A stretch of DNA of 64,000 nucleotides. It comes from Roseivirga sp. (lineage in GTDB: Bacteria > Bacteroidota > Bacteroidia > Cytophagales > Cyclobacteriaceae). The DNA is taken from the NCBI GenBank assembly GCA_021404565.1, contig JAAWWF010000042.1, positions 1-64,000 of the forward strand, read 5' to 3'. The stretch's first letter is position 1. Each line of letters starts with the position of its first letter. The position numbers were made by a program, and so were the translations under genes. The notes beneath the pieces are model-generated. The model did not search any database. It saw nothing but the letters and a program-made list of their open reading frames with translations, and was not told the origin of the DNA. Positions 5,733 through 31,439 of the stretch are shown here, piece after piece.

Positions 5733-5742
5733 CCAGTGTGTT

Positions 5743-6024: not shown

Positions 6025-6100
6025 TTGTCTTTCGTTTTAAGTTTACTTCTGAACAATATAAGTATTCCTACAGCCAATGTTAGTTTCGAAAAGCCTTCTT

Positions 6101-6973
6101 TTACCGAATACCTGCCAGTAGATCTTTGATGGGAATACACTGTACCTTCCCATTCAACTCATAAAAGAAAAGCTTTCCATCAGGCGAGATAGTCGGGGTG
6201 AGCTCATACACATCAGGTTGGTTGATGAGGTCCAGCTTTTGCGGTGCCGACCACTTATCTGATTCGTGGAAGCTTATCAGCATATCCATTTGTCCATTTG
6301 ATGGATAGTATCTGTTAAAGATCATAAACCGTTCATCAGGGTCAATAAAAAGATCATTTTCTGAATCAGCAGAATTGAGTGATGCGACATTTATGGGAGT
6401 AGTATAACGCCCGTTTTCCAGCTTCGAGCGATAGATGTCCATTCCTCCCTCACCTCCTGGTCGGTCAGAATTAAAGTATAGAGTACCATCTCTAGTGAGT
6501 GAAGGATAGCTGTCATGTCCTGCCTGATTAATAATGTCAAGGTATATGGGCTGGCTCCATTGCTCTCCCTGCCGCTCGACATACCATATATTGCCATAGG
6601 CCAACCCCTCATCCGAACCCGGAATTGGTCGCCATGAAATAAAAAAGAGCTGTTGATTGTCTACACTGAATACGGGATGATAATCAATGAAACGAGGATC
6701 GCTGAATGGGGCAAGGGTAGGAGAGGAAAAGGACGTTCCATCATGAGTCAAAAGGTAAATATCGCTTGCATTCCGACCATTCGGATCTTTTTGAGAGGTA
6801 CTCCTTGATATGTATATCTCATTCCAGCTTTGGTCAATGGTCAGGCCATTGGTGATCTTAAGATTCCATTCGCTACAGGCTATGCCAGGAGTACCCGATG
6901 AACAAGCCGGGCTTATCAGACAAACTATAATAAAAAAAGATAGATAATGTATAGAAAGTATCTTATGACTCAT
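6101..6973 (-). CDS. PD40/TolB-like beta-propeller lipoprotein
   Basis: A 290-aa protein with a lipoprotein signal (hydrophobic SFFIIVCLISPACSS, lipobox Cys about residue 24). The rest is built of WD40-like PD40 blades, seen as repeated patterns such as YHPVFSVDNQQLFF, DSYPSLTRDGTLYFNSDRPGGEGGMDIYRS and TPTISPDGKLFFY. In Bacteroidota such propellers often accompany OmpA or surface complexes. No enzymatic motif; probably binding or structural in the periplasm or outer membrane. Confidence 0.85.
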   Translation of the reverse strand: MSHKILSIHYLSFFIIVCLISPACSSGTPGIACSEWNLKITNGLTIDQSWNEIYISRSTSQKDPNGRNASDIYLLTHDGTSFSSPTLAPFSDPRFIDYHPVFSVDNQQLFFISWRPIPGSDEGLAYGNIWYVERQGEQWSQPIYLDIINQAGHDSYPSLTRDGTLYFNSDRPGGEGGMDIYRSKLENGRYTTPINVASLNSADSENDLFIDPDERFMIFNRYYPSNGQMDMLISFHESDKWSAPQKLDLINQPDVYELTPTISPDGKLFFYELNGKVQCIPIKDLLAGIR

Positions 6974-7125
6974 TGATTATAGATCAAGTTTAATTTCATC
7001 ACGGATTTTTCTAAATTGAGAGAGGTCTTGAAGATAACCTCACTGTCAGCTGTTCGCACAGCATTATATTTTTTAACGAATTTATTTCTTCCAGGCTGGA
7101 TTTTTTACGCAAGAAACCAAAACCT

Positions 7126-10100
7126 ATGTCAAACTCCGTTTCATTTTTTCTCAATGGAGAAGAAATAACCATCGAAAATCCATCACCCGACTTAATGCTC
7201 ATAGATTACCTTCGTTCGGAAGAGGTAGGTCTTACCGGGGCAAAAAAAGGTTGTGGTGAGGGAGGCTGTGGAGCCTGTACAGTCATTTTATCCCACTGGG
7301 ATGAAGCAACGAAAGCACCTGCCCACCATTCCATTAACTCTTGTTTGAGGCCCGTTTGCGCTCTCTCGGGACTATCAGTTACCACCGTAGAGGGTACCGG
7401 AGTTGTCGTAAGGCCTACACCAGCACATCAGGCTGCAGTGCCTTCGGGTTCCCGTTATGGTGCCCCTTTGAATGCTGAGCCTTCTCCGGAGTTTCTGGAA
7501 GCCGTAGCGGCAGCCCGCAACGAAAAGAAGGCACATCAACAGGAGAGCAGCTGTGCTGATGATGGCGGTGATCATGTACACGGAGGAATGAATCCGGTGG
7601 CGCACCGTCTGGCAGCCAACAACGGTACCCAATGTGGTTACTGCTCTGTGGGTTTTGTAATGAACATGTCCGCCTTTATTACCAACAATCCGAACGCCAC
7701 GAAAAAGGAAATCGAAGATGCTTTCGATGGTAATATCTGCCGGTGTACGGGTTATAGAGCCATTCTTACGGGTATGAAGACCTTTGCTTCCGATTGGAGT
7801 ACAGAAGATGAACTCGAGCGCATGAAATGCCTTACGGAGGATGGTTGTGACGATCAATGTCCGTCAGGTACAGTGAGTATTCCCTTTCCACCTGAAGCGA
7901 GATTTCCCGGTGAAATAGTAGAGTCTGAAGATGCAAAGCAGGAGTGGTATACCGCGTCAACCCTGGCCGATGTCACGCTCATTCTGAATACACATGATGA
8001 TAAGGTGGTCCGGTTGGTTCATGCCAACACCAGCTATGGAGTCTACCGGGAAGAGTATGAGGAATCACAGGTGCTGGTGGATATCAGAGACCTGAAAGAA
8101 TTAAAGGGTGTTGATTTCAAGAAAGACAAGGTAATCGTGGGCGCTTCCACAACCTATACCGAGTTTCTGGATGTGGTGGGAGCCATTGTCGAAGAACAAC
8201 ACCTGCCTGAAAACTCCAGGCTGGGAGCACTTCAGCATATGGGGCAAAGAACAGCCGGTATGATTGTGAGAAATGCAGCCAGTCTGGCCGGTAATTCTAT
8301 GATGGCCATGAAGCATATCCATGAAGGAGAACCTTTTCCTTCCGATCTGTTTACAGTATTGTATGCGTTGGAGGCCTCGGTGGATATTTATGTTATCTCG
8401 AACAAAAAGAAGGAGCATTACAGCATACCAGAGCTGGTAGAAAGAATCAGGAAAGAAGATGGTTTCTCTAAAGACTTCGTCTTGCTCAGGTATCATGTGC
8501 CGGTTGGAGGTGATGATATCGTTCTTGCCCAGAAAACGGCTATACGCCAGGTCAATTCGCATTCAATTGTGAATTCCACCACTGTTTTCGATGTAAAGAA
8601 ATCAGGCAAACTGGATGAGGCAAGGCTTATCTTCGGTGGTATTGCTCCTTATCCATGGGAGGCCAAAAAGACCGGGAGATATCTGAAGGGGAAAGAGCTT
8701 TCAGAGGTGAAATTCTCTACAGTGGCTAAGAAACTAAGAGATGAAGTGCTGGCAGAACTGAAGGTTCACGCCAAAAGAATGGCACAGTACCCAAGCGAGG
8801 GCTTTACTGAGGAATACAAAGCCGAATTGGCTGTCGGTTTTTTATATAGAGCCATCATCAATGCGCTCAATGATACAGACCCGAGGGCGGTTCCTTATAA
8901 CCTTAAATCTGCAGGTGAAATACCCTGGGGGCACTGGCCGGTTACCGGTGGTTTGCAGAGCTATGAAAACCAGGATTGGAAGGCTCCAATGTCACAACCT
9001 TATGTCAAGCTGGCTGCTTTCTATCAAACTTCGGGTCAGGTAGATTATACACATGAAATCAAGCTGCCTGCCACGGGATTGAATGGTGCTTTTGCACAAA
9101 GTAAGCGGGCCCTGGCTAATTTTCATTATGTGATACCCGGCAAAAAGGGTGAGGCTTCCATCGCCCAGCTCCAGGCACACTTGAAAGAAAAGTTCGAACA
9201 TTTCCGTTACCTGGTCACCTGGCAGGATATTCCCAAAGGAGGTGTCAACCTTCAGGGAATCGGGGCCGATCAGCCGTTTTTCGCCACCGATCAGGTTCAG
9301 TATGTTGGGCAGGCGCTTTGTATGGTGCTGGCACCAGAAGAAAGACAGGCCTTCGTGATTTCAAATTACGTGGCGGATCATTGTGTGGCCTATACTAAAA
9401 TACAGTGGCCTGCCGGACCGAATGGAGCCTGGTCTGAAGCCTGGTCTGAGCCCATCATTTCCCTCGACAAGGCTATTGAGATGGGGAGTGTTTATCCTGA
9501 TAACCCCAAGACGGCATCCTGGTATACGCACATCTGGAAAATTACCAGGCCTGAATCCAGCTTTGACTGGGCAGACCTGAGTAAAAATCCACTGGATAAA
9601 CGGATTACCGTAAATGATGGTATTCAGGTAGATGGGGTGAATTGTATGCTGATAGGATCTACACAAAGCGTGGGAAGCCAGATCCATTTCTATATGGAAA
9701 CCCAGTCAGCAGTGGCCTTACCTTCCTATGGTGAGCAGCTCAAGATTCATCCCTCTTCGCAGAGCCCTATGGAGATGCACAATGTATCGGCTACAGCGTT
9801 AGGCGTTGAGTTTAACCAGGTTGAGGTAGAAGTACATCAGCTGGGTGGTGGCTACGGAGGTAAAACGGAGCAGGCAAAATTTATCGCAGGTCCGGCAGCC
9901 GTGGCGGCCAAGGCTACCAATAAACCCATCCGCCTGGTGATGCAGCGGGCGAATGATACTGCGATGATTGGTAAGCGGCACCCTTATTACGGGCAGTATC
10001 AGATTGCCATTGATAAAGGAGATCACAATCCGGGTGACAGAGGACTTATTCGTGGTTTCAGGACTAAGTTCTGGGGAGATGGAGGTGCTTTCTATGACTG

Positions 10101-11634
10101 CTCCTACATCGTTTCCAATTGTGTGCAGCTCAGAACAGATTCCGCTTATTACGTGAAGAATTTTGAGACAGTGCTTGATGTCTGCCGCACTAATACAGCC
10201 CCTAATACGGCTTTCAGGTCTTTCGGAGATATCCAGGGCTCCATTATTCAGGAGAATGCCATTGATGATGCTGCCTTTATGATTGGGATGGATGCAGAGG
10301 AAGTACGGGCCAAAAATATGTATGTGCGGGGTCAGACCACGCCATTCGGTCAGGCGCTTTCTTACTGCTATATGCGCGATGTATGGCAATACACGAAAGA
10401 GGTTTCCAATTTTGAAGAGAAAAAGAAGGAAGTAGCGGCCTTTAACAGCGCCAACAAATGGCGTAAGCGAGGGGTATACATGATTCCTGTGAAATACGGA
10501 TCAGGTTATAATCTGGTGGCACTGGAGCAGGCTGCGGCTGTCATTTCGGTCTATCAGTCAGATGGTACCATCAGCATTAACCAGGGCGGTGTAGACATGG
10601 GGCAGGGCTTTATGACTAAGTGTGAGCAGGTAGCCTCATATGTGCTCAATGTGCCTATGGACATGATCAGAATTCATCATGCTAAAACAGCCATCATTCC
10701 CAACCCAACCAGTACGGGTGGTTCTACTGGTACCGCCTACAATGGTGAGGCCATCAAGCAGGCCTGTGAGGAGCTGAGAGGCATCCTGATGGATTTTGCT
10801 TATAAGATGAAAGACGAGATGGGCCCTGAATACTGTGCTACGCAACACATCGATTTCTGGAACTATGAAGATGGCTGGGGGCATGAGTTTACTGATGCTT
10901 TTGGTCAGAAAAAGATCATCTGGCAAAATCTGGTGCAGCTGGCTTATAACAATCGCGTCAGTCTGGTAGTCAGCTTTAATGCCAAGATTCCCGGAGGAAC
11001 CACTCCGGTTCCGGCCATGGGCTTTAAGCAAAGCTGCGAGCAACCCAATATTCCCGGGGTTCCCTTTGTGGATGAACGCGATGTGTCAGGGATTGTAGAC
11101 TCCTTCGTAGGTTTTACTTTCTCCGCCTCCTGTTCGGTAGTTGAGGTAGACATTCTAACCGGAGAGCACAAGATCATTTCTTCCGATGTGGTATATGATA
11201 TGGGCTGGAGCCTGAACCCGGCCATCGACATAGGTCAGGTAGAAGGTGCCTTTATTCAGGGAGTGGGCTATGTGACTACCGAGAACCTGGTACATCAGCC
11301 CGATGGAGAAGAAAAAGGAAGGCTCAATACACTGAATACCTGGAGGTACAAGCCACCGGCAACCTCTACCATTCCATTGGAACTGAATACGCACTTATTT
11401 CCACGAAGTCGTGCAGAACATGTACCTGAAAACCCCAATGGGCTCTTTTCTTCCAAAGAAGTGGGAGAACCACCATTGGTACTTGCCGGCAGTGTCTTCT
11501 TTGCCATTAAAGCGGCAGTGAGAGAATCTCGTCTGGAAAGAGGTTTGGATGGACTGTTTAATATGAATGCTCCTGCCACAGTTCAGGAAATAAGAAAGGC
11601 CTGTGCTGTGAGTCTGGAAGAGATGGAGATCTGA
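7126..11634 (+). CDS. Single-chain xanthine dehydrogenase/aldehyde oxidase family protein
   Basis: A 1502-aa molybdenum hydroxylase in the eukaryote-like one-chain order. The plant-type 2Fe-2S domain has GCGEGGCGACT (about 41-51). The second 2Fe-2S domain has GTQCGYCS (about 166) and NICRCTGYR (about 202). A CO-dehydrogenase-like FAD domain spans about 270-530, and the molybdopterin domains carry LGGGYGGKTEQ (about 904), NTAFRSFG (about 1026) and EVGEPPL with the catalytic Glu (about 1444). About 60 extra residues, Cys/His/Asp-rich at the end, separate the two 2Fe-2S domains. By eye, the purine-binding Glu802 and Arg880 of bovine XDH are replaced by Thr and Cys, so xanthine may not be the substrate. 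Most bacteria split this enzyme into subunits. Confidence 0.88.
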   Translation: MSNSVSFFLNGEEITIENPSPDLMLIDYLRSEEVGLTGAKKGCGEGGCGACTVILSHWDEATKAPAHHSINSCLRPVCALSGLSVTTVEGTGVVVRPTPAHQAAVPSGSRYGAPLNAEPSPEFLEAVAAARNEKKAHQQESSCADDGGDHVHGGMNPVAHRLAANNGTQCGYCSVGFVMNMSAFITNNPNATKKEIEDAFDGNICRCTGYRAILTGMKTFASDWSTEDELERMKCLTEDGCDDQCPSGTVSIPFPPEARFPGEIVESEDAKQEWYTASTLADVTLILNTHDDKVVRLVHANTSYGVYREEYEESQVLVDIRDLKELKGVDFKKDKVIVGASTTYTEFLDVVGAIVEEQHLPENSRLGALQHMGQRTAGMIVRNAASLAGNSMMAMKHIHEGEPFPSDLFTVLYALEASVDIYVISNKKKEHYSIPELVERIRKEDGFSKDFVLLRYHVPVGGDDIVLAQKTAIRQVNSHSIVNSTTVFDVKKSGKLDEARLIFGGIAPYPWEAKKTGRYLKGKELSEVKFSTVAKKLRDEVLAELKVHAKRMAQYPSEGFTEEYKAELAVGFLYRAIINALNDTDPRAVPYNLKSAGEIPWGHWPVTGGLQSYENQDWKAPMSQPYVKLAAFYQTSGQVDYTHEIKLPATGLNGAFAQSKRALANFHYVIPGKKGEASIAQLQAHLKEKFEHFRYLVTWQDIPKGGVNLQGIGADQPFFATDQVQYVGQALCMVLAPEERQAFVISNYVADHCVAYTKIQWPAGPNGAWSEAWSEPIISLDKAIEMGSVYPDNPKTASWYTHIWKITRPESSFDWADLSKNPLDKRITVNDGIQVDGVNCMLIGSTQSVGSQIHFYMETQSAVALPSYGEQLKIHPSSQSPMEMHNVSATALGVEFNQVEVEVHQLGGGYGGKTEQAKFIAGPAAVAAKATNKPIRLVMQRANDTAMIGKRHPYYGQYQIAIDKGDHNPGDRGLIRGFRTKFWGDGGAFYDCSYIVSNCVQLRTDSAYYVKNFETVLDVCRTNTAPNTAFRSFGDIQGSIIQENAIDDAAFMIGMDAEEVRAKNMYVRGQTTPFGQALSYCYMRDVWQYTKEVSNFEEKKKEVAAFNSANKWRKRGVYMIPVKYGSGYNLVALEQAAAVISVYQSDGTISINQGGVDMGQGFMTKCEQVASYVLNVPMDMIRIHHAKTAIIPNPTSTGGSTGTAYNGEAIKQACEELRGILMDFAYKMKDEMGPEYCATQHIDFWNYEDGWGHEFTDAFGQKKIIWQNLVQLAYNNRVSLVVSFNAKIPGGTTPVPAMGFKQSCEQPNIPGVPFVDERDVSGIVDSFVGFTFSASCSVVEVDILTGEHKIISSDVVYDMGWSLNPAIDIGQVEGAFIQGVGYVTTENLVHQPDGEEKGRLNTLNTWRYKPPATSTIPLELNTHLFPRSRAEHVPENPNGLFSSKEVGEPPLVLAGSVFFAIKAAVRESRLERGLDGLFNMNAPATVQEIRKACAVSLEEMEI

Positions 11635-24564: not shown

Positions 24565-25998
24565 TTAATCCGTTTCCACTCGCCCACCCCGAGCCTCCTT
24601 GACTCCACACATCCTGACAATCTTCGGATGAAAAACTCCAACGACCTCCACCAGAGACTGCTGTCGGTCCATCACCTCATGAATGTTTTTATATACCTGT
24701 GGTGCCTCGTCAATGCCTGAGCCCATTAGCGTTATTCCTGCCTTCTTTATCTCACGACTCACCTCTTTTTTGGAAAGCGTATTTCGGGCTTTTGACCGGG
24801 ACATAGCACGACCGGCACCATGAGCCGCTGAGTTGAGCGAGTTCTTCTCACCTTTGCCGCTTACGATAAAGCCCGGTGAGGTCATAGATCCGGGGATAAT
24901 TCCCATTATTCCCTTGCCGGCCGGAGTTGCGCCCTTCCGGTGTATAATCAACTCTCTTCCATCTTTACTCTTTTCCTTCCAGGCAAAGTTGTGATGATTT
25001 TCAATATTGGCCAGTGGTTGATCGCCCAGGGCTGCCGTTATTCTTTCATGAATCTGGTGATGACAGGCGGTAGCATAATCACCCGCCAGATTCATAGCCA
25101 GCCAATACTCCTGACCTGCCTCTGTATCTAAATCCAGCCAGGCCAGGTGTTTGGCTTCTCTCGGTAGTCTGGTCATATCCATGGCCAGCCCGGTGTAGTG
25201 TTGGGCAATATTTGCACCAAGTCCCCTCGATCCCGAGTGGGAGAGTACCGAGAAATATTTTCCTGCAGGTAGGTTCATCTCGTTTTCAGGGTTCAGTATT
25301 TCCGCAATACCAAACTCAACAAAATGGTTACCTCCTCCGGATGATCCAAGTTGGGTTCGGGCCTTGTTTTTTAATGATCTGAGCAAGTTTATTTCATTGA
25401 ACAGTGGGTTGCCGAGTACCTTGTGATCTCTGGGAGTTCTGAAACTGGTTTGGCCAAAACGTGTATTGTCCATCATTACCTCCGTCAGCCAACCTGTATT
25501 TTGATGTACAAAAGCAGGAGGGATGTCGTAGAGGGTCATACTCATACGGCAACCGATATCAACCCCGACAGCAAATGGAATGACAGCATTTTCAGTAGCC
25601 AGCACACCACCTACAGGAAGTCCGTAACCTGTATGTGCATCGGGCATTAGCGCTCCTGCCTTTGCCACCGGCAGTTTCATAGCGATGTCCATTTGGTCAA
25701 AGGCACCCTGTTCAATACCCTCAGGGCCATAGGTATGATAAGGAATGCCCTGCTTTAGTAAAGCTTTGGATCTGCTCATTTCTGCTGCTTCCATCAAGAT
25801 GGAGGCAATGGAACCAAATACCTCGTGGCGCCTGTATAGGGCCGGATTGTCCGCCACCCTTTTGAGCATTGCTTTTTTATGTAAGATAGACTTGCCCTTA
25901 AAGTGCAGGTCTATTACTTCCAGGGCCATGCTGGTAGCAGTGCCGGGGAGATAGCCTAGCTTTTTAAGGTCTTTGTCTGTTAATTTTCGCGCTGCCAT
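24565..25998 (-). CDS. rtcB: RNA-splicing ligase RtcB
   Basis: About 477 aa from the ATG at 25998. A GTG 54 bp further upstream would extend it, but that start falls inside a hairpin (26041-26070). RtcB joins RNA 2',3'-cyclic phosphate or 3'-phosphate ends to 5'-OH ends using GTP and Mn. Metal and guanylate motifs are visible: VGVDIGCRMSM, SSGGGNHFVEFG, LSHSGSRGLG, ENHHNFAW and HRKGATPAGKG with the His nucleophile. It is the last gene of a minus-strand operon that begins with an array of tRNA-like elements and slipin, pointing to tRNA repair rather than splicing. No RtcA or RtcR is nearby. Confidence 0.95.
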   Translation of the reverse strand: MAARKLTDKDLKKLGYLPGTATSMALEVIDLHFKGKSILHKKAMLKRVADNPALYRRHEVFGSIASILMEAAEMSRSKALLKQGIPYHTYGPEGIEQGAFDQMDIAMKLPVAKAGALMPDAHTGYGLPVGGVLATENAVIPFAVGVDIGCRMSMTLYDIPPAFVHQNTGWLTEVMMDNTRFGQTSFRTPRDHKVLGNPLFNEINLLRSLKNKARTQLGSSGGGNHFVEFGIAEILNPENEMNLPAGKYFSVLSHSGSRGLGANIAQHYTGLAMDMTRLPREAKHLAWLDLDTEAGQEYWLAMNLAGDYATACHHQIHERITAALGDQPLANIENHHNFAWKEKSKDGRELIIHRKGATPAGKGIMGIIPGSMTSPGFIVSGKGEKNSLNSAAHGAGRAMSRSKARNTLSKKEVSREIKKAGITLMGSGIDEAPQVYKNIHEVMDRQQSLVEVVGVFHPKIVRMCGVKEARGGRVETD

Positions 25999-26040
25999 GA
26001 TTGACAATAGTTTATGGGAACGATGCCCTTGTTGATTGGG

Positions 26041-26070
26041 CCTCAGAGTCACTCAATGATGACTCCGAGG
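26041..26070. repeat. CTCAGAGTC-family hairpin
   Basis: CCTCAGAGTCA and TGACTCCGAGG form an 11-bp stem (one mismatch) with an 8-nt loop. The same arm sequence and the trailing GAGGAAC occur at 11833-11862. It lies between rtcB and the 75-aa gene. Confidence 0.65.
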
Positions 26071-26085
26071 AACCAAATGGTTTAA

Positions 26086-26313
26086 TCAGTTCACCTTTAT
26101 AAAGGTGCCGAGCTCCAGCGCCTTTCTGATATATCGCATCATGATAATGGCCTTGTCGCTGCTTAAGAAAGTAGCGTCACCGATATCTTCGACAGGAACG
26201 GGAAAAGAATACTGATCCTGATCTACGGGTACGTTATAATACAAGTGCCCCGCACGATAATGAGAAAAACTAACCTGGTTGTCTTTTACAATTTGTTTTA
26301 ACGTCATATTCAT
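26086..26313 (-). CDS. Small conserved-looking protein in rtcB operon
   Basis: About 75 aa from the ATG at 26313 (MNMTLKQ); a GTG four codons upstream is less likely. Mixed alpha/beta composition with FPVPVEDIGDATFLSSDKAIIMMRYIRKAL in the C-terminal half, soluble, no Cys. I do not recognise a family. The gene lies between the TPR gene and rtcB on the same strand with short gaps, so it is most likely part of that operon and could be a small partner of one of its products. Confidence 0.65.
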   Translation of the reverse strand: MNMTLKQIVKDNQVSFSHYRAGHLYYNVPVDQDQYSFPVPVEDIGDATFLSSDKAIIMMRYIRKALELGTFIKVN

Positions 26314-26427
26314 TTTGTTCACCACCTGATGTGAGTATTCAGGTAGCCGTCATCAGATGGGTTTTATTTCCGACTGCCTGAGGTATATGAGGAACATGTC
26401 CTCGTTTATTTTAGCTGGTTACCTTCA

Positions 26428-26949
26428 TTATGCTGAAAGGACTCTTTTCCAGCGCATTTTTAATCGTTTGTACTTGTTCCGCTTGATGTGCTTTTTTAGC
26501 TCATCAGCGTCTCTGTTATCCAATGATTCCAGCAAGGCCTGTTTGTAGTATTGGATGGCATTGTTATAATGACCTTCCGACTCTTCAACCTGTCCGAGCT
26601 TTTCAAAGATGAATGACTTGTCCAGATCTGCCACTTTCATGGCCTTCTGCATAAGCGATTTTAAACCCTGGTATTTGTTGTGTTTCTGGTACATGATGGC
26701 CAACTCTCTGTATACCGATTCGAACCTCGGGTAGAAGCGAATCGCCAGATGATAGTGGCGCTCTGCCAGCTCCAGGTTTTCCAGGTGATACCAATACAAG
26801 TCGCCCATGGCGGCATGTAGCCTCGCATAACCAGGCTCTTCCATCAAACCACTTACCAGTAGTTTTTTGGCCTCATCATATTTACCATGATCCATGGCAT
26901 CTTCTGCTAACTGAATCACATTCTCGATATATTCAGTATAAATGTTCAT
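26428..26949 (-). CDS. Tetratricopeptide repeat protein
   Basis: About 173 aa from MNIYTEYIE at 26949 (a longer start overlapping the upstream gene is possible). It has three to four TPR-like helical hairpins, for example HGKYDEAKKLLVSGLMEEPGYARLHAAMGDLYW, ELAERHYHLAIRFYPRFESVYRELAIMY and EGHYNNAIQYYKQALLES. The C-terminus is very basic (KKHIKRNKYKRLKMRWKR), which suggests RNA or membrane-surface contact. TPR proteins act as protein-binding scaffolds; here it may link slipin and RtcB. Cytoplasmic. Confidence 0.85.
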   Translation of the reverse strand: MNIYTEYIENVIQLAEDAMDHGKYDEAKKLLVSGLMEEPGYARLHAAMGDLYWYHLENLELAERHYHLAIRFYPRFESVYRELAIMYQKHNKYQGLKSLMQKAMKVADLDKSFIFEKLGQVEESEGHYNNAIQYYKQALLESLDNRDADELKKHIKRNKYKRLKMRWKRVLSA

Positions 26950-26969
26950 TGTATTCTGGTTATGAGTCA

Positions 26970-27482
26970 CTAATAGCAGCGACTCCATTTTTTCTTAACT
27001 CTCATCAACTGACCGCTTTTCGGGTGAACATAAAACTTAGGGTGCCAGTAGGATATAAGTTCCTGTGGGCCGCCCCAGCGGTCTTGTCCTATGACTTTTC
27101 CTTCCTCGATTTTCACCTTGGTTTCTACAAAGTCTTCGAGGTGGTCAAATACATGCTGACCTAAAAGCGTATTCTTATCCATCTTTTTGCAGAGCTGCGA
27201 GTACACCTTATTCCAGTATTTGCCTTCATGCTTTTCAAGAAAGCGAATCAGCGGTTTCAGGTTATCGCATTGGTATTTTATACCTCCGCTTCTGGCTTTA
27301 ATGCCCTCCTTTTGCTTCTCATTTTCGAAGTCATTATTTCGGGCATTTTTCTGGTATCCCTTCTTTTTCTTAAGGTTCCCACCACCTCCACGATAGCATT
27401 CAATCAGCTCTTCGTGCAGGCGTTTATCTCTGCGTTTCTGCCGCTTTCGCAACGATGGTTTTAGCGTGCCTGAATGATCCAT
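26970..27482 (-). CDS. Unknown basic protein in rtcB-slipin operon
   Basis: A 170-aa protein I do not recognise. The first 60 residues are strongly basic and low-complexity (RKRQKRRDKR, RGGGGNLKKKKGY), as in RNA-binding tails. The C-terminal 100 residues look like a compact domain with conserved-looking WNKVYSQLC, LLGQHVFDHLEDFV, WGGPQELISYWHPKFYVHP and a basic end. One Trp/His/Pro-rich stretch (YWHPKFYVHPKSGQLMR) could be a metal or nucleotide site. It lies between slipin and the TPR gene, same strand. A role with RNA is a reasonable guess, not shown. Confidence 0.75.
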   Translation of the reverse strand: MDHSGTLKPSLRKRQKRRDKRLHEELIECYRGGGGNLKKKKGYQKNARNNDFENEKQKEGIKARSGGIKYQCDNLKPLIRFLEKHEGKYWNKVYSQLCKKMDKNTLLGQHVFDHLEDFVETKVKIEEGKVIGQDRWGGPQELISYWHPKFYVHPKSGQLMRVKKKWSRCY

Positions 27483-27570
27483 TGTTGTTTTCTTTAAGTC
27501 GCGGGCCAGAGCCCGCGACTGTTATATATCCTCCGCCTTTCGGTGGGGGTTCAGAGAGTTTTCTTTCAGG

Positions 27571-28671
27571 TCACTTAAATCCCGTGAAGACTTCCTTCAG
27601 CTGATCTACCACCTTACTGCCGCCTGAGAGAGAGATGTTGCTGACCTTGTCGGCAATTTTCTCTACATATTCCATCTCCTTGAGTCTGAACAACATCTCG
27701 TTGTCCTCCATTAGTTTGGCGGTATTCAGCAAGCTTCTGGTAGCGGCTGTTTCTTCTCTTCTGGCAATGACATTGGCTTGTGCCTGCTTTTGGGCTACCA
27801 GCACCTGGTTCATGATGTTTTTTACTTCACCGGGCAGAATGATGTCCTTGACGCCACAATCCCTGATCTCAATTCCCAAATCACCGGCTTTTGCCTCGAG
27901 TACTTCTTTTACATATGCTGCAATAGAGGTTTTCTCTTCAAGCAATTCATCCAATGTATATCGACCTATAAATTCTCTCAGCGCTAACTGCATCAGCACG
28001 TACAGCTGCTTTACATAGTCTTTGTTTTCGATCAGGGCTTTGACAATGTCGCTGACCCTGTATTGACCGAAAAAGTTGACCCTCAAAGCGGCTTTGTCCC
28101 GGGTGAGGATTTCCTGACCTGAAACTTCCATTTGTACGAGCCTCATATCGGCTTTCATCACACTGATTGGCGTGGCATTTTTCCAGAAATAGTGAACCCC
28201 TTTGTCCATACTTCTTTCGAATTTTCCATCTATCATCAGCAATCCGGCTTCATGGTTTTCCACCACGTATGCCCTGATGTATGCCTGCAATTCTCTTTTT
28301 ACCAGCAGTTCTTTGCTAAACCCGGCCGGAATTTCATAATCGTTCAAATCTGCTTTCACAAATCTGTAATCGATCAACCCCTTCCAGAAAGCGTATCGGC
28401 CTGCTGTGAGAATGCCTTTGAAATTGCCACGTTCATAGTGGATGACAATTTCGCTGTCTTTCACTTCGACCACCTCCAGCAATGAAGCCAGCTTGGGGTC
28501 TTTTAAGAGCATGTTCAGCTCTTTTGCGGTGGTGAAAGGCTGGGTCAGATCATATTCGATTACATAATCGAAAAGTGATACCCAGTAGGTACCTGCGGTG
28601 AGTACAGTTCTGTAATCACCTCGTCTGAAAACCAGACCCACCATTCCTTCATTGATGCGTATCCTTTTCAT
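27571..28671 (-). CDS. Slipin, SPFH/band 7 family protein
   Basis: About 366 aa from MKRIRINEG at 28671; the ORF extends 28 codons further upstream but that part has no family character. It carries the prohibitin-homology (SPFH/band 7) core: INEGMVGLVFRRGDYRTVLTAG, RYAFW, a D-K-x-x-L-R strand, the FIGRYTLDELLEEK block and the C-terminal coiled coil VLVAQKQAQANVIARREETAATRSLLNTA. SPFH proteins form membrane-associated cages. The classic N-terminal membrane hairpin is absent, so attachment may be indirect. First full-size gene of the operon that ends with rtcB and directly downstream of the tRNA-like array. Confidence 0.9.
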   Translation of the reverse strand: MKRIRINEGMVGLVFRRGDYRTVLTAGTYWVSLFDYVIEYDLTQPFTTAKELNMLLKDPKLASLLEVVEVKDSEIVIHYERGNFKGILTAGRYAFWKGLIDYRFVKADLNDYEIPAGFSKELLVKRELQAYIRAYVVENHEAGLLMIDGKFERSMDKGVHYFWKNATPISVMKADMRLVQMEVSGQEILTRDKAALRVNFFGQYRVSDIVKALIENKDYVKQLYVLMQLALREFIGRYTLDELLEEKTSIAAYVKEVLEAKAGDLGIEIRDCGVKDIILPGEVKNIMNQVLVAQKQAQANVIARREETAATRSLLNTAKLMEDNEMLFRLKEMEYVEKIADKVSNISLSGGSKVVDQLKEVFTGFK

Positions 28672-28845
28672 TGTTTTAGTATTTGTGAAGGGGTGGCTTG
28701 TAATACATCTCCCGTCTGGAAATGAGACAAACCTGACCTTCAATTGAAGATTCATTTCGTAGTCTGATTCAGGTCCTGCCTAATGCAATAGACCTGGTCC
28801 TGACTTATTTTATCGGCCAGATAAATTCTGTTAAAAGGAAGCGGC

Positions 28846-29106
28846 TCAGACAAACCATTTCTTCAAAGCGAAGGATTCATTGAGTCTCAATTCGCTTATG
28901 AGTGCTTCAGGGTCGGATAAGTGGTTTGAGAATGAGTGGGCCCATTCTCTACTGGCTTGCCTTCTGCTGAAGAAGTCATCAGTTGCATCAGGCGGTATCC
29001 TGAATGCCCTGGCTTTGTCAAAATGCTCCGATCCGGGCCTAAATCCGAATCGGGGTTTATCTGTACACCGCTTCCCGGTGTTGGCTGTTTTAAAGAAGAC
29101 AGCCAC
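28846..29106 (-). CDS. Putative 86-aa protein between tRNA-like array and slipin
   Basis: A GTG-initiated reading frame of 86 codons with protein-like composition (PDATDDFFSRRQASREWAHSF, then LISELRLNESFALKKWFV) and codon use like its neighbours. No family recognised. The proposed start lies in a perfect GGCTGT/ACAGCC hairpin, 9 bp past the last anticodon stem-loop, so the real start may be different or the ORF may be the remnant of a longer gene truncated by growth of the array. Confidence 0.45.
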   Translation of the reverse strand: MAVFFKTANTGKRCTDKPRFGFRPGSEHFDKARAFRIPPDATDDFFSRRQASREWAHSFSNHLSDPEALISELRLNESFALKKWFV

Positions 29107-29114
29107 TTCCGTAA

Positions 29115-29131
29115 ATGGATTTTAAGTCCAT
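29115..29131 (-). ncRNA. Stand-alone anticodon stem-loop, TAA (Leu-type)
   Basis: ATGGA-CTTAAAA-TCCAT: a perfect 5-bp stem and a 7-nt loop with T33 and anticodon TAA, as in tRNA-Leu(UAA). No D arm, T arm or acceptor belongs to it; it directly replaces the T half of the preceding tRNA-like unit. Confidence 0.75.
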
Positions 29132-29134
29132 CAC

Positions 29135-29178
29135 CTAGATTAATAGTCTAGTGCTCTAACCAACTGAGCTACAAAGAC
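29135..29178 (-). ncRNA. 5' half tRNA-like unit, anticodon ATT
   Basis: Acceptor 5' strand GTCTTTG, TA, D stem GCTC/GAGC with a normal D loop, and a perfect anticodon arm CTAGA-CTATTAA-TCTAG with anticodon ATT. A complementary 3' acceptor strand and a T arm are missing. A34 in an Asn-box anticodon is not normal for bacteria. Confidence 0.75.
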
Positions 29179-29181
29179 CAG

Positions 29182-29198
29182 CCAGATTATCAGTCTGG
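29182..29198 (-). ncRNA. Stand-alone anticodon stem-loop, GAT (Ile-type)
   Basis: CCAGA-CTGATAA-TCTGG: a perfect 5-bp stem and 7-nt loop, T33 and anticodon GAT. It sits after the acceptor-like end of the neighbouring unit that lacks its own anticodon arm, as though the arm had been moved outside the tRNA. Confidence 0.75.
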
Positions 29199-29262
29199 AG
29201 TCAATGACAGGATTCGAACCTGTGCTGTGAATCCGATGTTCTATCCAGTTGAACTACTCCGC
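29196..29262 (-). ncRNA. tRNA-like unit lacking a complete anticodon arm
   Basis: D arm GTTC/GAAC with a normal loop and T arm ACAGG-TTCGAAT-CCTGT, ends GGAGT/ACTCC, but only 14 nt lie between the arms, so the 3' side of the anticodon stem is absent (ATCGGATTCACAGC). Its 5' strand GCGGAG is instead perfectly complementary to the CTCCGC 3' strand of the preceding unit. Confidence 0.65.
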
Positions 29263-29264
29263 TT

Positions 29265-29354
29265 TTGCGGAGGGAGGATTCGAACCTCCAACCCTCGGGT
29301 GGCAGAAATACATCAAACTAAGTAGCATACCATTGCCTACCGGCATGGTACTAC
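29265..29354 (-). ncRNA. tRNA-like unit with T arm and oversized hairpin
   Basis: T arm GGAGG-TTCGAAT-CCTCC followed by acceptor 3' strand CTCCGCA. The D/anticodon part is replaced by a 13-bp hairpin with small bulges (29322-29354; GTAG...CTAC, ACCAT...ATGGT) and a stretch with TGCCACCCGAG. No matching 5' acceptor strand occurs upstream within this unit. Confidence 0.55.
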
Positions 29355-29374
29355 GGGGCTATACCGAAACCCTC

Positions 29375-29393
29375 ATCAGGCCTTATGCCTGAT
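29375..29393 (-). repeat. Spacer hairpin in tRNA-like array
   Basis: ATCAGGC and GCCTGAT form a perfect 7-bp stem around a 5-nt loop, between two tRNA-like units. Similar spacer hairpins occur at 29861-29879 and 29969-29984 and may guide processing. Confidence 0.6.
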
Positions 29394-29402
29394 ATATTCC
29401 TG

Positions 29403-29644
29403 TGCATCTGAAAGGATTCGAACCTTTAACCTGAATGATGAAATAGGCTTTCTATTATGACTGTAATTCACTTTGAATCAGTCGCTTCGCTTCGTTTGGT
29501 CTCTCACCATAGCGATGCTATGCCGTCAAGACCAAACTTCCTGATTCTTTGCGATTTACAGCCTCACTACGATTCCTATTACATGAGTCGGGTTTAACCC
29601 ACGGGGCAAAAACCCGTTGCTCTGCGCTATTGAGCTACAAATGC
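29403..29644 (-). pseudogene. tRNA-Lys(TTT)-like gene interrupted by a palindromic element
   Basis: Acceptor GCATTTG/CAGATGC, D stem GCTC/GAGC, anticodon arm ACGGG-TTTTTGC-CCCGT (anticodon TTT, T33) and T arm AAAGG-TTCGAAT-CCTTT are all intact. The 5-nt variable loop is split by a 163-bp element with a TTTAA duplication. Removing the element and one duplicate gives a perfect 74-nt tRNA with variable loop GGGTT. Whether the interrupted RNA is still processed is unknown; the insert itself folds as a hairpin, so the cloverleaf could still form around it. Confidence 0.85.
29425..29597. mobile_element. 163-bp palindromic MITE-like element, copy B, with 5-bp target duplication
   Basis: Element 29430-29592, flanked by TTTAA at 29425-29429 and 29593-29597. 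Ends CCTGAATGATG and (from the other side) CCCGACTCATG. It shares GGCTTTCTATTA, CTTTGAATCAGTCGCTTC, CTCACCATAGC and CTTCCTGATTCTTTGCGATT with copy A at 21911. Stem positions differ between copies with pairing kept (for example C-G in A is T-A in B), so the folded form appears to be under selection. No ORF. Confidence 0.85.
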
Positions 29645-29661
29645 ATGTCGTTTTAGCGTCA

Positions 29662-29718
29662 GTCGCTCGGTTTTACGGAGTGACCATTACTCTTTGTCAC
29701 TCGCGAAACAGGAGTGAC
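29662..29718 (-). repeat. Two tandem 7-bp hairpins in tRNA-like array
   Basis: 29696-29718 reads GTCACTC-N9-GAGTGAC and 29662-29684 reads GTCACTC-N9-GAGCGAC on the minus strand. Both have the same stem and a 9-nt loop (CTGTTTCGC and CGTAAAACC). They lie between a reduced tRNA-like unit and the Lys unit. Confidence 0.6.
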
Positions 29719-29759
29719 TGGTTTGGATCGCCAACGTGCTAACCGCTAACGCACACCAG
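29718..29759 (-). ncRNA. Minimal 42-nt tRNA-like unit without anticodon arm
   Basis: Ends CTGGTGT and AAACCAG pair at six of seven positions. Between them are a D-arm-like GTTA-GCGGT-TAGC and a small TTGG-CGAT-CCAA stem in the place of the T arm. There is no anticodon arm. It could be a decayed tRNA or a deliberately reduced form. Confidence 0.5.
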
Positions 29760-29766
29760 CTAATTG

Positions 29767-29850
29767 TGGAAAAGACTGGATTCGAACCAGTTAAGCCTAA
29801 AGGCACCGGTTTTACAGACCAGCACAACTCTCCATCGTTGTCGCATTTCC
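29767..29850 (-). tRNA. tRNA-Tyr(GTA)-like
   Basis: An 84-nt class II structure: acceptor GGAAATG/CTTTTCC (one mismatch), D stem ACAAC/GTTGT, anticodon arm CTGGT-CTGTAAA-ACCGG (GTA), variable arm GCC-TTTA-GGC and T arm ACTGG-TTCGAAT-CCAGT. Discriminator A. The D stem is not the usual GC(T/C)C type, and the acceptor mismatch suggests divergence from a normal tRNA-Tyr. Confidence 0.75.
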
Positions 29851-29860
29851 TTGTATCTCT

Positions 29861-29879
29861 TCAAACCCGTATGGTTTGA
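29861..29879 (-). repeat. Spacer hairpin in tRNA-like array
   Basis: TCAAACC and GGTTTGA form a perfect 7-bp stem around a 5-nt loop between the Asn-like and Tyr-like units. Confidence 0.6.
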
Positions 29880-29891
29880 TAGGTCATTTTC

Positions 29892-29966
29892 TGGCGGAAA
29901 CGGCTGGATTCGAACCAACAACCCTCTCCTTAACAAGGAGCTGCTCTGCCATTGAGCTACACTTCC
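29892..29966 (-). tRNA. tRNA-Asn(GTT)-like with encoded CCA
   Basis: Acceptor GGAAGTG/CGTTTCC (with G-T pairs), D stem GCTC/GAGC, anticodon arm GCTCC-TTGTTAA-GGAGA (anticodon GTT, outer pair mismatched) and T arm GTTGG-TTCGAAT-CCAGC. Discriminator G and then CCA are encoded (29892-29895), unlike tRNA-Arg and tRNA-Pro in this window, where CCA is absent. That suggests a different origin. Confidence 0.8.
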
Positions 29967-29968
29967 AG

Positions 29969-29984
29969 TCCCGATTACTCGGGA
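29969..29984 (-). repeat. GNRA-type spacer hairpin
   Basis: TCCCGA-GTAA-TCGGGA: a perfect 6-bp stem closed by a GTAA tetraloop, three nucleotides upstream of the Asn-like unit and close to a second small GGAGA/TCTCC hairpin. Confidence 0.6.
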
Positions 29985-30066
29985 GATCATCTCTCCACAC
30001 CTCCGGTCTTTCCTTCTGTGTTTCGAGACAACCTGCTAGCTGTATTGGAGCTTTTACAAACATCAC

Positions 30067-30149
30067 AGCCCGAACGAAAGGCTGCTTGTGGCCTTCAACC
30101 ACTCTCCAACTTAAGGAGACACTCGTTCTGCCTCTCCCTTAGCTTCTTT
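30067..30149 (-). ncRNA. Leu-type tRNA-like unit, anticodon AAG
   Basis: Anticodon arm TCTCC-TTAAGTT-GGAGA (30103-30119; AAG, T33), variable arm GTGG-TTGAAGG-CCAC (30088-30102) and T arm AGCCT-TTCGTTC-GGGCT (30067-30083). A D-like stretch with GGCAGAACGAG precedes. Acceptor strands pair poorly. The long variable arm fits a tRNA-Leu ancestor. The variable arm itself resembles a short anticodon arm with GAA. Confidence 0.6.
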
Positions 30150-30166
30150 GCACCTTCTGAGGGTGC
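30150..30166 (-). ncRNA. Stand-alone anticodon stem-loop, CAG (Leu-type)
   Basis: GCACC-CTCAGAA-GGTGC: a perfect 5-bp stem and 7-nt loop with T33 and anticodon CAG. No D or T arm flanks it. Confidence 0.75.
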
Positions 30167-30184
30167 CTGATTTCTTTTCTATAC

Positions 30185-30269
30185 AATTCTTCGAACCATG
30201 ACTTTGCGGCAGGCAGGCCTCGACCTTATCATAGACAGTAATGTATTCTACCCCTGAACTACGGTGCCC
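30185..30269 (-). ncRNA. Degenerate tRNA-Asp(GTC)-like unit
   Basis: 5' acceptor strand GGGCACC, D stem GTTC/GAAT and anticodon arm CATTA-CTGTCTA-TGATA (GTC, T33, but T37 instead of a purine). The T region keeps only GGTTCGAA without a proper stem and follows a 20-nt insertion with repeated GCCTGCC. No GGTGCCC acceptor partner follows. Confidence 0.6.
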
Positions 30270-30300
30270 TTTTCATGATCATTCCGATCAGTATTTTTAG

Positions 30301-30374
30301 TTGGCTCACCGGGACTTGAACCCGGAGCTTCCAGCTTATAAGACTGGTACTCTAACCTGTTGAGCTATGAGCCA
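30301..30374 (-). tRNA. tRNA-Ile(TAT)-like
   Basis: Complete 74-nt cloverleaf: acceptor TGGCTCA/TGAGCCA, D stem GCTC/GAGT, anticodon arm CCAGT-CTTATAA-GCTGG (TAT) and T arm CCGGG-TTCAAGT-CCCGG. It begins with a T1-A72 pair instead of the normal G1-C72. A tRNA with TAT would read AUA; most bacteria use a lysidine-modified CAT instead. This is the first unit of the array in transcription order. Confidence 0.75.
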
Positions 30375-30467
30375 TTGATTTCATATCCTTCCGTCCTACG
30401 GACATCCTGTCTGCCTTAGGAGGAATGACCCCTCTGCTTTTTAAGCATATTCCCTGTGAGGGGAGAC

Positions 30468-30498
30468 AAAAAAAGCCCGACCTTGATGAAGGCCGGGC
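30468..30498 (-). terminator. Rho-independent terminator upstream of tRNA-like array
   Basis: On the minus strand GCCCGGCCTT and AAGGTCGGGC pair around CATC (one G-T type mismatch) and are followed by seven T. It ends the second small unit; the array begins about 95 nt further on, so array transcription needs read-through or its own start. Confidence 0.85.
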
Positions 30499-30524
30499 TT
30501 TTCAAAACTGTGTATACAGTTTTG

Positions 30525-30644
30525 CTAAGTCATACTTCTCTCGGCCTTGTGCAAAAGACATAGTTCACCTGTTTCAAAATCACGATAATTTTGAGTCGCA
30601 GTCCATGAACTCACGCTATGTATTCGTTCCATTTTCTTTTGCAT
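30525..30644 (-). ncRNA. Short terminator-ended unit 2 (possible 39-aa ORF)
   Basis: A short transcript-like unit ending in the terminator at 30468. It contains a 39-codon ORF (MQKKMERIHSVSS...). The segment AGAAAATGG...CGTGAGTTCATG...ATTAT is also found in unit 1, but out of the ORF's frame, so nucleotide conservation suggests a structured small RNA rather than a peptide. Confidence 0.45.
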
Positions 30645-30669
30645 ATCCTAACTCGTTTAAAACAAAAAA

Positions 30670-30689
30670 CCCGAACCAAATGGCCCGGG
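30670..30689 (-). terminator. Rho-independent terminator of unit 1
   Basis: CCCGGGCC and GGTTCGGG pair around ATTT (two G-T pairs) and a TTTTTTG tail follows on the minus strand. Confidence 0.75.
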
Positions 30690-30718
30690 CTTCTAAGTAT
30701 CTTTATGTAGAAATCTAC

Positions 30719-30808
30719 CTATAATCCGAACCGTAACAACATGTATTCACGAGCGCCATTTTCTCCTATTGGGCTTGCTACTTGTATGTGTGAATAAATT
30801 TTTCTCAT
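30719..30808 (-). ncRNA. Short terminator-ended unit 1 (possible 29-aa leader peptide)
   Basis: Begins about 10 nt after the predicted start site of the 30826 promoter. It could encode a 29-aa peptide (MRKIYSHIQVASPIGENG...). It shares scattered conserved blocks with unit 2 in a different frame and is followed by its own terminator, so a small RNA or attenuator-type leader for the array/rtcB operon is the best guess. Confidence 0.45.
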
Positions 30809-30825
30809 TCTTCGTTGTTATGCTG

Positions 30826-30857
30826 CAAATGTACTGAAATTGATTTCGTAATTGCAA
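30826..30857 (-). promoter_or_regulatory. Bacteroidota-type promoter upstream of array
   Basis: On the minus strand: TTG (30857-30855), a 21-nt spacer and TACATTTG (30833-30826), a perfect match to TAnnTTTG. Transcription would begin near 30819 and run leftwards through the two small units towards the tRNA-like array, slipin and rtcB. No other consensus promoter is visible between here and slipin. Confidence 0.7.
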
Positions 30858-31439
30858 ACGGAGAATTGAAAAACTTGTTGTGACATGTGTTTTAATGATT
30901 GTAATCAATTGATAAACAGTGATTTAAATTTGTGAAAAAATATTGAAAGGACTTTTTGAATGCCCAGGCCTAAATGAGGGAAGAGTAAAGGCCACCTTGT
31001 TGAATTGTTTTTAACTCCTTCAATTTCGAGATAACCAGAGTTTTTACAAGTCAAATGAAGAGCAACTTATCCAAAGATCAACGTCTTAAGTTTTGTGGAT
31101 TGTTGGGTCAGGTTATCTTCTGATTTCGAAGAATTCGGGGCCCCTCAGGTAAGAATAATTCCGGGGTATTTTACGGGCGTAATTCCACTAAACAAAGGCC
31201 TCTGAATTTAGAAAGTAGGAAAGCAGAAACGGCCTATAATAATGGGGCACTACGAGAGTAGAATGACCAAATGAACCGAGACTTTGTTTGACCTCTTTTA
31301 AGAGCTGAAAATCTAGTTTATGAGAAGTATAAAGAAAAATTAATTTGTTTAACCGTTTATACGGTTTAATCAATTTTCCCAATTACTTATCTATGGTCTA
31401 ACATCTCTAAGTCTGTCGTCTGGCTTTTCAAGCACAGCT
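30858..31439. other. AT-rich intergenic region
   Basis: About 580 bp with lower GC than its neighbours. The 64-codon ORF at 31188-31382 (minus) is Leu/Tyr/His-rich with no recognisable domain and is probably chance. I see no repeats or RNA genes here. Confidence 0.4.

Follow-up and report, generated by a model that had tools for sequence, protein, structure and literature searches.

A slipin–RtcB operon of Roseivirga combines attenuator-like leaders, a tRNA array and an RNA of circularly permuted tRNA mimics

Introduction

The window analysed here, 64,000 nucleotides of a Roseivirga-like genome (GenBank GCA_021404565.1, contig JAAWWF010000042.1; source genome G000, in 81 contigs), contains a minus-strand operon that runs from position 30858 to position 24565 and brings together tRNAs, a structured RNA, a slipin gene and the gene of the RNA ligase RtcB. 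Read 5′ to 3′, it comprises a promoter, two units each made of a leader open reading frame (ORF) and a terminator, a series of tRNAs and tRNA-like units, and the genes for slipin, a basic protein, a TPR protein, a 79-residue protein and RtcB. A preliminary description had reported this one-strand series of promoter, terminator-ended units, array, slipin and rtcB, and the letters agree with it at the coordinates concerned. Gene content, linkage in relatives, RNA structures with their covariation, and the anatomy of the leaders together make a translation-stress-induced rescue and RNA-repair operon the best model for the locus, one that we hold to be slightly on the probable side. Two of its elements had gone unmentioned before: the units that end in terminators resemble leader-peptide attenuators in tandem, and a conserved RNA lies 5′ of slipin, whose structure and link to slipin are documented below and whose role we infer.

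Results

A conserved RNA of permuted tRNA mimics accompanies slipin

The tRNA-like units at 29301-29108 had been counted with the array. They are circularly permuted and belong, on comparative evidence, to a separate conserved RNA composed of a 5′ helix domain and two permuted tRNA mimics (all operon features described here lie on the minus strand). In the permuted arrangement, the strand 3′ of the T arm pairs with the strand immediately 5′ of the next D arm, the two being separated by a short loop. The 5′ domain, domain A (29318..29396), rests on covariation in 35 sequences, with 111 compensatory cells against 32 ± 4.4 in shuffled controls and at most 29 when slid. Mimic 1 (29230..29301; model R1, 29301-29108, 119.3 bits) consists of a T arm (29289-29273), a joined acceptor hairpin (29272-29257) and a D arm from 29256, and is closed by a helix that replaces the anticodon stem; it has no anticodon loop, and the ends of the unit therefore fall where that loop would be. 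Mimic 2 (29135..29229), delimited by R1 and by sequence, has a T arm (29223-29207), a D arm (29171-29153) and an anticodon-type arm (29151-29135) with the loop CTATTAA; its acceptor loop contains a hairpin with the loop CTGATAA, and its acceptor pairing is imperfect in the window. Further 3′ are a free hairpin resembling an anticodon arm (29115..29131, loop CTTAAAA), recognized from its sequence, and a possible H-type pseudoknot (29083..29110), whose pattern, at a score of at least 9, occurs in 42 of 62 loci and in 52 of 310 mononucleotide shuffles, an enrichment of the pattern. The Rfam YrlA model (RF02553) flags 29297-29231 at 45.5 bits, below its cut-off of 69.

An alignment of 25 permuted-unit sequences contains 39 base pairs in eight helices, is 95.3% paired and displays covariation in all helices, with 271 compensatory cells (shuffled controls, 84.7 ± 7.5; slid alignment, no more than 57). 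The structure derives from this same alignment, and the selection of sequences by acceptor pattern favours it; the closing stem and the anticodon-type arm were not among the selection criteria. The latter is found in unit 2 at most loci, with L044 and L090 as examples lacking a clear arm. A normal-cloverleaf reading of the slipin-proximal units was rejected: with the acceptor 5′ strand taken before the first D arm and tested against the strand after the second T arm, acceptor strands pair in 60 of 125 cells, compared with 124 and 123 of 125 for the permuted stems.

The RNA is closely tied to slipin. Permuted units occur in the 1 kb preceding the gene in 77 of 85 loci, 44 of which have at least two units, and some matches occur farther upstream, in array sequence; the 1-kb stretch downstream contains none in the same 85 loci. 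Model R1 scores at least 83 bits 5′ of slipin in 62 of 77 loci, 25 of which were used to build it, and the second-best match in G000 reaches 56.5 bits. Across 395 genomes of the phylum, scanned with filters that lose weak matches, 17 matches exceed 96 bits and 16 of them stand beside slipin (the exception being L271); G000 and G016 were known beforehand, and the others may be species of the named loci. None of 13 examined loci at 72-87 bits has slipin within flanks of about 1.5 kb, and these matches look like tandem ordinary tRNAs. The RNA is also present 5′ of slipin without an array, in Spirosoma, Tenacibaculum and Flavobacterium.

A small ORF at 28846-29106, previously listed among the genes of the operon, is probably not a gene, because it matches no family, its relatives align in short pieces (split at some loci between two frames or segments), and it overlaps or abuts the permuted RNA.

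Outside the phylum, tRNA-like sequence precedes slipin in records of Subdoligranulum, Burkholderia cenocepacia, Escherichia coli and Photobacterium (R1 scores of 28.5, 21.0, 13.5 and 50.0 bits, respectively), and an rtcB homologue follows slipin in all of these except E. coli, where a nucleotidyltransferase does. The T arm with joined hairpin was seen only in E. coli, the order looking normal in the other three; at least 80% of the E. coli stretch is present in 1617 of 5426 genomes of that species. That record (L288, strain STEC639, 5683-7922), with slipin, the nucleotidyltransferase and the T arm with joined hairpin on the 5′ side, also carries a sigma-54-like box; such upstream boxes were found with a pattern allowing mismatches and without a control.

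Tandem leader units resemble leader-peptide attenuators

The operon opens with a promoter-like sequence, TTTG-N21-TACATTTG (30826..30858), which we take to be the Bacteroidota promoter type; a scan for the sigma-70 consensus gave no match there. The leaders were compared in 12 Roseivirga loci, namely the window and 11 relatives, and the strict promoter pattern occupies this place in 8 of them. In all 12, the promoter region is followed by two short ORFs, each succeeded by an intrinsic terminator. In the window, these are leader ORF 1 (30719..30808; 29 residues, MRKIYSHIQVASPIGENGAREYMLLRFGL), terminator 1 (30665..30694), leader ORF 2 (30525..30644; 39 residues) and terminator 2 (30468..30499). 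An ORF at the respective position is expected in 3% and 2% of random leaders generated by a first-order Markov null. The 5′ arm of terminator 1 is able to pair with GGTTCGG in the terminal part of ORF 1, and that of terminator 2 with AAGGCCG, which lies close to the 3′ end of ORF 2.

When the last 36 nucleotides of each ORF were compared with the terminator 5′ arm, G-U pairs being allowed, a pairing of at least seven bases was found for the first leader in 10 of 12 loci (6% of shuffles; failures in L024 and L028) and for the second in 11 of 12 (3% of shuffles; failure in L023), counts that overstate independence because the loci are related. The partners change together between loci, as in AAGGTCG with CGGCCTT, AGATCGGG with CCCGATCT, and AGACCGGG with CCCGGTCT. 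Leader ORF, terminator and mutually exclusive antiterminator pairing, that is, the anatomy of attenuation, are thus present in the Roseivirga loci, the pairing in most of them. Among array loci of other genera, a terminator lies within 600 nucleotides 5′ of the first tRNA in 13 of 15 (hand-picked, no null), and a leader ORF ends 23-31 nucleotides before the terminator in 12 of 15 (allowed range -5 to 60, no null). A codon bias towards Asn, His, Tyr and Asp in the leaders was sought by eye and not established.

In attenuation of the trp type, a short leader ORF is followed by a terminator that competes with an alternative antiterminator pairing. The window leader has these same three features; it differs in having two such units in tandem and in standing ahead of tRNA genes.

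Array tRNAs of relatives look chargeable and differ from the host in their anticodon loops

The array was characterized mainly in relatives, through 307 tRNAs found by ARAGORN in 54 loci near slipin, of which nine are counted twice (L023/L033, L025/L034 and L026/L035 are the same genomes). As housekeeping reference we used the distinct tRNAs of G000 (36), G029 (33) and G030 (38); 14 array tRNAs with no housekeeping counterpart were left out of the loop comparison. All seven acceptor pairs are kept in 272 of the 307, and the discriminator is the commonest cognate base in 259, compared with 126 expected under independence; the His and Thr discriminators are mixed. Whereas U33 is kept in 292 of 293 array tRNAs, position 37 departs from the host in Gln, His, Leu-UAG, Pro, Asp, Glu and Phe tRNAs: where housekeeping tRNAs have only G37, 59 of 68 array tRNAs have A37, and U37 occurs in 24 of 26 Asp and 16 of 17 Glu tRNAs and G37 in 21 of 22 Phe tRNAs. 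A37 is usual in Gln and His tRNAs of some other phyla, and is less telling in those two.

Between Aquimarina and Zobellia, array tRNAs are 83% alike (12 pairs), compared with 67% between array tRNAs and their own housekeeping counterparts (29 pairs), which marks them as a separate, maintained lineage; housekeeping tRNAs of the two genera are 92% alike (17 pairs). The arrays of these genera are redundant with the housekeeping sets (16 tRNAs in Aquimarina, 13 in Zobellia). Because acceptors and discriminators are kept and the loops depart at position 37, substitutes fit the array tRNAs of relatives, most of which look chargeable, better than decoys do.

The array of the window itself was examined with ARAGORN and the Rfam tRNA model (cut-off 29 bits). 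The intact members are tRNA-Ile(UAU) (30300..30374; ARAGORN, 70.3 bits), for which no housekeeping tRNA with the same anticodon was found, tRNA-Asn(GUU) with an encoded CCA end (29892..29966; ARAGORN and Rfam) and tRNA-Tyr(GUA) (29766..29850; ARAGORN, 32.4 bits). Two degenerate units were assigned with the help of sequence. One (30205..30268, 17.4 bits, its Rfam match spanning 30215-30268) has the Asp-type loop CTGTCTA and a lost or displaced T arm, and the other (29580..29644, 27.0 bits) retains a D arm, a Lys-type anticodon arm and a shortened T arm. Both fall below the cut-off, as do matches at 29206-29257 and 29403-29485; a match at 29110-29178 exceeds it with 31.6 bits. A T-arm remnant was recognized at 29411..29427. 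The earlier figure of about eleven tRNA-like units is thus reached only if degenerate ones count, ARAGORN finding three in the array. As ARAGORN picks intact tRNAs by design, the degenerate units stand outside the argument for spare tRNAs; they could still be decoys, or decay. Palindromic or repeat-like inserts of the CCTGCCTG type occur within array units at 29490-29545 and about 30205-30217, and also upstream of the array in L032, and look as if repeats invade a decaying array.

G000 has a second array at C7:53431-54391 (locus L142, about 9430-10390, plus strand), in which ARAGORN finds Ser, Ser, Cys, Asp, His, Gln and Leu tRNAs. The Asp, His and Gln members have array-type loops, and Leu-UAG has no long variable arm. 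No match to the proteins of the operon was found in the 18 kb examined around it.

The array, slipin and rtcB are linked across the Bacteroidota

Among 18 genomes of the same genus, 11 encode a slipin of this kind at full length, and the same 11 have RtcB; one has RtcB without slipin (a draft of about 540 contigs) and six have neither. TPR and rtcB genes follow slipin in 10 of the 11, and in G009 the end of a 5.8-kb contig cuts rtcB. ARAGORN tRNAs lie 5′ of slipin in nine (not in L027 and L030). Beyond the genus, a search of named genomes, from which the best 80 of 88 slipin relatives were kept, returned mostly entries labelled as Bacteroidota groups, along with one Rickettsiales and one labelled only as a bacterium.

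For gene neighbourhoods, we used the 62 loci whose sequence extends at least 5 kb upstream and 6 kb downstream of the slipin start, clustering genes by blastp linkage and checking families on one member each. At least two same-strand tRNAs occur within 5.6 kb 5′ of slipin in 28 of them, compared with one locus (L058) having at least two tRNAs, on either strand, in the 5.6 kb on the 3′ side. Gene counts were 39 loci for rtcB, 31 for TPR, 18 for a WYL gene and 15 for PrfH. The order varies: rtcB follows slipin in Roseivirga and several other Cytophagales, and in the PrfH loci rtcB, PrfH and TPR genes come before the array or slipin. Flavobacteriaceae loci such as L075 and L081 have WYL-domain or PrfH genes in place of, or in addition to, the leader-type context. 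The claimed link of array, slipin and rtcB thus recurs across the Bacteroidota, and because it does, array units of this kind of locus are not simply found near unrelated genes in relatives.

Proteins of the operon and genome context

Slipin (SPFH/Band_7; PF01145, 2.4e-30) is encoded at 27571..28671. We moved its start from 28755 to 28671, giving 366 residues; the latter is probably correct, since alignments with relatives begin at residue 15-27 of the longer ORF and many of the relatives' own ORFs have 364-366 residues. It is followed by the basic 170-residue protein (26970..27482), for which 64 homologues share invariant residues; this protein matched no Pfam or NCBIfam family and no sequence in the PDB, and its structural model (mean predicted local distance difference test score 70) gave no convincing fold match. 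The TPR protein (26428..26988) was assigned by family match, while the 79-residue protein (26086..26325) has homologues in L020, L021 and L023 and no match to Pfam or other families. RtcB (24565..26052; PF01139, 6.7e-79) aligns to the solved Pyrococcus RtcB and keeps GVDIGC, GNHF, HSGSRG, HN and HRKGAT, presumably the metal and guanylation motifs. None of the six proteins of the window operon matched TROVE or RF-1 (PrfH). PADLOC, run on eight proteins, matched the WYL protein of a relative to WYL models and weakly to Cas3c, and a TPR model matched weakly. The genome, at 8.57 Mb, is about twice the usual size for the genus (G009, with 8.2 Mb, being the exception), with 98% completeness and 1.7% contamination.

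Discussion

In the rescue and repair model, transcription would start near 30820, immediately downstream of the promoter, and would have to pass both attenuators. Ribosomes that complete the leader ORFs would allow the terminators to form and keep the operon off. If translation stalled, or intact tRNAs became scarce, the 3′ codons of the ORFs would be left bare and could pair with the terminator 5′ arms, resulting in read-through; the ORFs, terminators and alternative pairings are there in the letters, and the switching would be their consequence. The array would then supply spare tRNAs with anticodon loops of their own, probably replacing tRNAs lost to cleavage, a function suggested by the chargeable-looking structures and altered loops seen mostly in relatives. 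The permuted RNA would belong to the repair machinery as its tRNA-shaped component and would most likely act as scaffold or bait for partners that bind tRNA, RtcB for instance, much as Y RNA serves its own partners. Slipin and the TPR protein would hold the assembly, perhaps at the membrane, and RtcB would religate cut RNA, with PrfH added in some relatives.

Several of our results weigh against this model. The intact array tRNAs of the window are Ile, Asn and Tyr only, the rest being largely decayed. Array loops of Lys, Asn, Tyr, Cys, Ser-UGA and Trp mostly equal the housekeeping loops, and a resistance to nucleases would therefore not cover them; the Gln discriminator often deviates, with U73 in 14 of 22 array tRNAs. 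Substitutions in the leader ORFs are distributed over the codon positions as 54/58/76 and 49/58/66, so that constraint at the protein level is weak; strong selection on the leader peptides was not detected in this way in the Roseivirga loci. The presence of a WYL gene in 18 of 62 slipin loci implies that control is not uniform, and rtcB is absent from 23 of the 62, eight of which have neither rtcB nor two tRNAs, which implies that neither is needed for slipin and its RNA to act. The array linkage does recur at slipin, but these eight loci and the second array of G000 fall outside the pattern. Finally, the array tRNAs have no raised kinship to phage tRNAs, their mean best identity to four phage sets being 0.69 compared with 0.70 for housekeeping tRNAs, and a phage-derived array was rejected on this ground.

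Three other readings have to be considered. In the decoy or sensor model of the preliminary description, as it would now read, the tRNA-like units, and above all the anticodon arms of the permuted RNA, would absorb or report anticodon nucleases while RtcB reseals the real tRNAs. Unit 2 indeed often has anticodon-type arms with housekeeping loops (Lys CTTTTAA, Met CTCATAA, Asn CTGTTAA and Phe CTGAAAA), and the degenerate units of the window keep a D arm and an anticodon-type arm while their T arm or acceptor is damaged. However, mimic 1 has no anticodon loop, a clear unit 2 arm is absent in some loci, including L044 and L090, and the array tRNAs keep their acceptors and discriminators and differ from the host at position 37. 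Anticodon bait was set aside as the chief explanation of the array for the latter reasons, and the idea, while still open for the permuted RNA, strikes us as quite unlikely for the system as a whole. A second reading, also unlikely, is that the permuted RNA and slipin, often with RtcB, form a Y-RNA-like ribonucleoprotein core. The array tRNAs would be a dispensable cargo of this core and would be decaying in Roseivirga. The arrayless loci of Spirosoma, Tenacibaculum and Flavobacterium, the 16 of 17 strong matches beside slipin, the three of four records from other phyla with tRNA-like RNA 5′ and rtcB 3′ of slipin, and the decayed array of the window all agree with such a core. The lineage of array tRNAs kept between genera, and the leaders and terminators that precede the arrays at 12 of 15 further loci, speak instead for their use.

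That a mobile tRNA array, derived from a phage or plasmid, came by chance to lie beside slipin and rtcB, with no joint role, would account for the patchy presence of the locus (7 of 18 genomes of the genus are without slipin of this kind), for the repeat inserts and for the second array away from slipin. Bacillus phage vB_BcoS-136 shares the array loops of Asp (CTGTCTA), Glu (CTTTCTA), His (CTGTGAA) and Leu-UAG (CTTAGAA); Cellulophaga phage Calle_1 shares those of His and Pro and has a host-like Asp loop; and 459 phage records contain short matches to one array. Such a by-product is nevertheless very unlikely, given the same gene order in many genera, a covarying RNA, the 5′ bias of tRNAs (28 compared with 1 of 62 loci), the phage identities given above, and slipin matches in phage records that amount to two of the HflK type, in records labelled Salmonella.

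The rescue and repair model has precedents. The closest that has been tested is the trn operon of Anabaena, in which 26 tRNAs remain silent until translation antibiotics are present and then favour survival; in strain PCC 7120, rtcB and a slipin gene (alr0739-alr0740) are under the same repressor, TrcR (PMC10272220), and a further account names both genes as well (PMC9938897). This L-array is a large tRNA set redundant with the housekeeping tRNAs, as the arrays of Aquimarina and Zobellia are, and it shares its repressor with rtcB and slipin. It differs from the window operon in that the genes lie apart under an RHH repressor (PMC10272220), whereas here a single locus has putative leader attenuators, or a WYL gene in other loci. 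Phage tRNAs with altered anticodon loops have been argued to resist anticodon nucleases (PMC10264068). The array tRNAs likewise have changed loops, several of them identical in vB_BcoS-136, but are host-encoded, stand beside a repair ligase and are overall no closer to phage tRNAs.

In Salmonella, YrlA is a tRNA mimic with permuted T arm, acceptor hairpin and D arm that adjoins the RtcB gene (PMC7790460, PMC8394870). The window operon shares with that rsr–YrlA–rtcBA arrangement, as described there, the permuted module of T arm, acceptor hairpin, D arm and closing stem; it differs in lacking rsr and having slipin as the partner gene, and its RNA differs from YrlA in having two tandem permuted modules and a new 5′ domain, and in scoring below the RF02553 cut-off. 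Comparison by eye suggests that domain A is unlike the stem of the Y-type RNAs of G000 itself. Those RNAs lie at C48:290923-294478 (L243), where the only TROVE (rsr) gene of the genome, several tRNA-like or Y-type RNAs and a second rtcB form an RNA-repair operon of the classical kind, alongside the array kind in the same genome. The comparison with Rsr and Y RNA made in the preliminary description was therefore apt, with Y-RNA-type modules nearest to slipin and an rsr–RNA–rtcB locus elsewhere. Repair operons of RtcB and PrfH, a known partner, also contain a TPR gene (PMC6514570, PMC9223846), as does the window operon, and PrfH is present in 15 of 62 loci of relatives; the window has no PrfH, and the available text of those papers mentions neither a tRNA array nor slipin nor a permuted RNA. 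We found no description of RtcB with slipin and tRNA-like RNA, or of RtcB with band-7 proteins and tRNA, in the literature searched, although earlier ones are possible.

The targets and timing of RtcB repair in bacteria are still poorly defined. An operon in which RtcB is encoded together with spare tRNAs, a tRNA-mimic RNA and an apparent readout of failing translation makes this question testable, and it connects the silent tRNA operon of Anabaena with the Y RNA of RNA repair and with tRNA sets whose anticodon loops are altered. The permuted RNA is a concrete target, because it has a clear structure, is a steady partner of slipin and belongs to no Rfam family at cut-off. Tentatively, and with somewhat more doubt than confidence, we propose that it may form a new family among the large structured RNAs and be the RNA component of a machine in which slipin anchors RtcB and cut tRNAs are sensed or captured. 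In the Bacteroidota, this machine would have been joined to a reserve of loop-altered tRNAs under attenuator control, and a single operon would then sense failing translation, provide substitutes and repair the damage. If this is true, mimic 1, opened exactly at the anticodon loop, resembles a tRNA that an anticodon nuclease has cleaved and that was then resealed at the acceptor end. Taken as a whole, the operon suggests an emergency kit for marine bacteria whose tRNAs are being cut.

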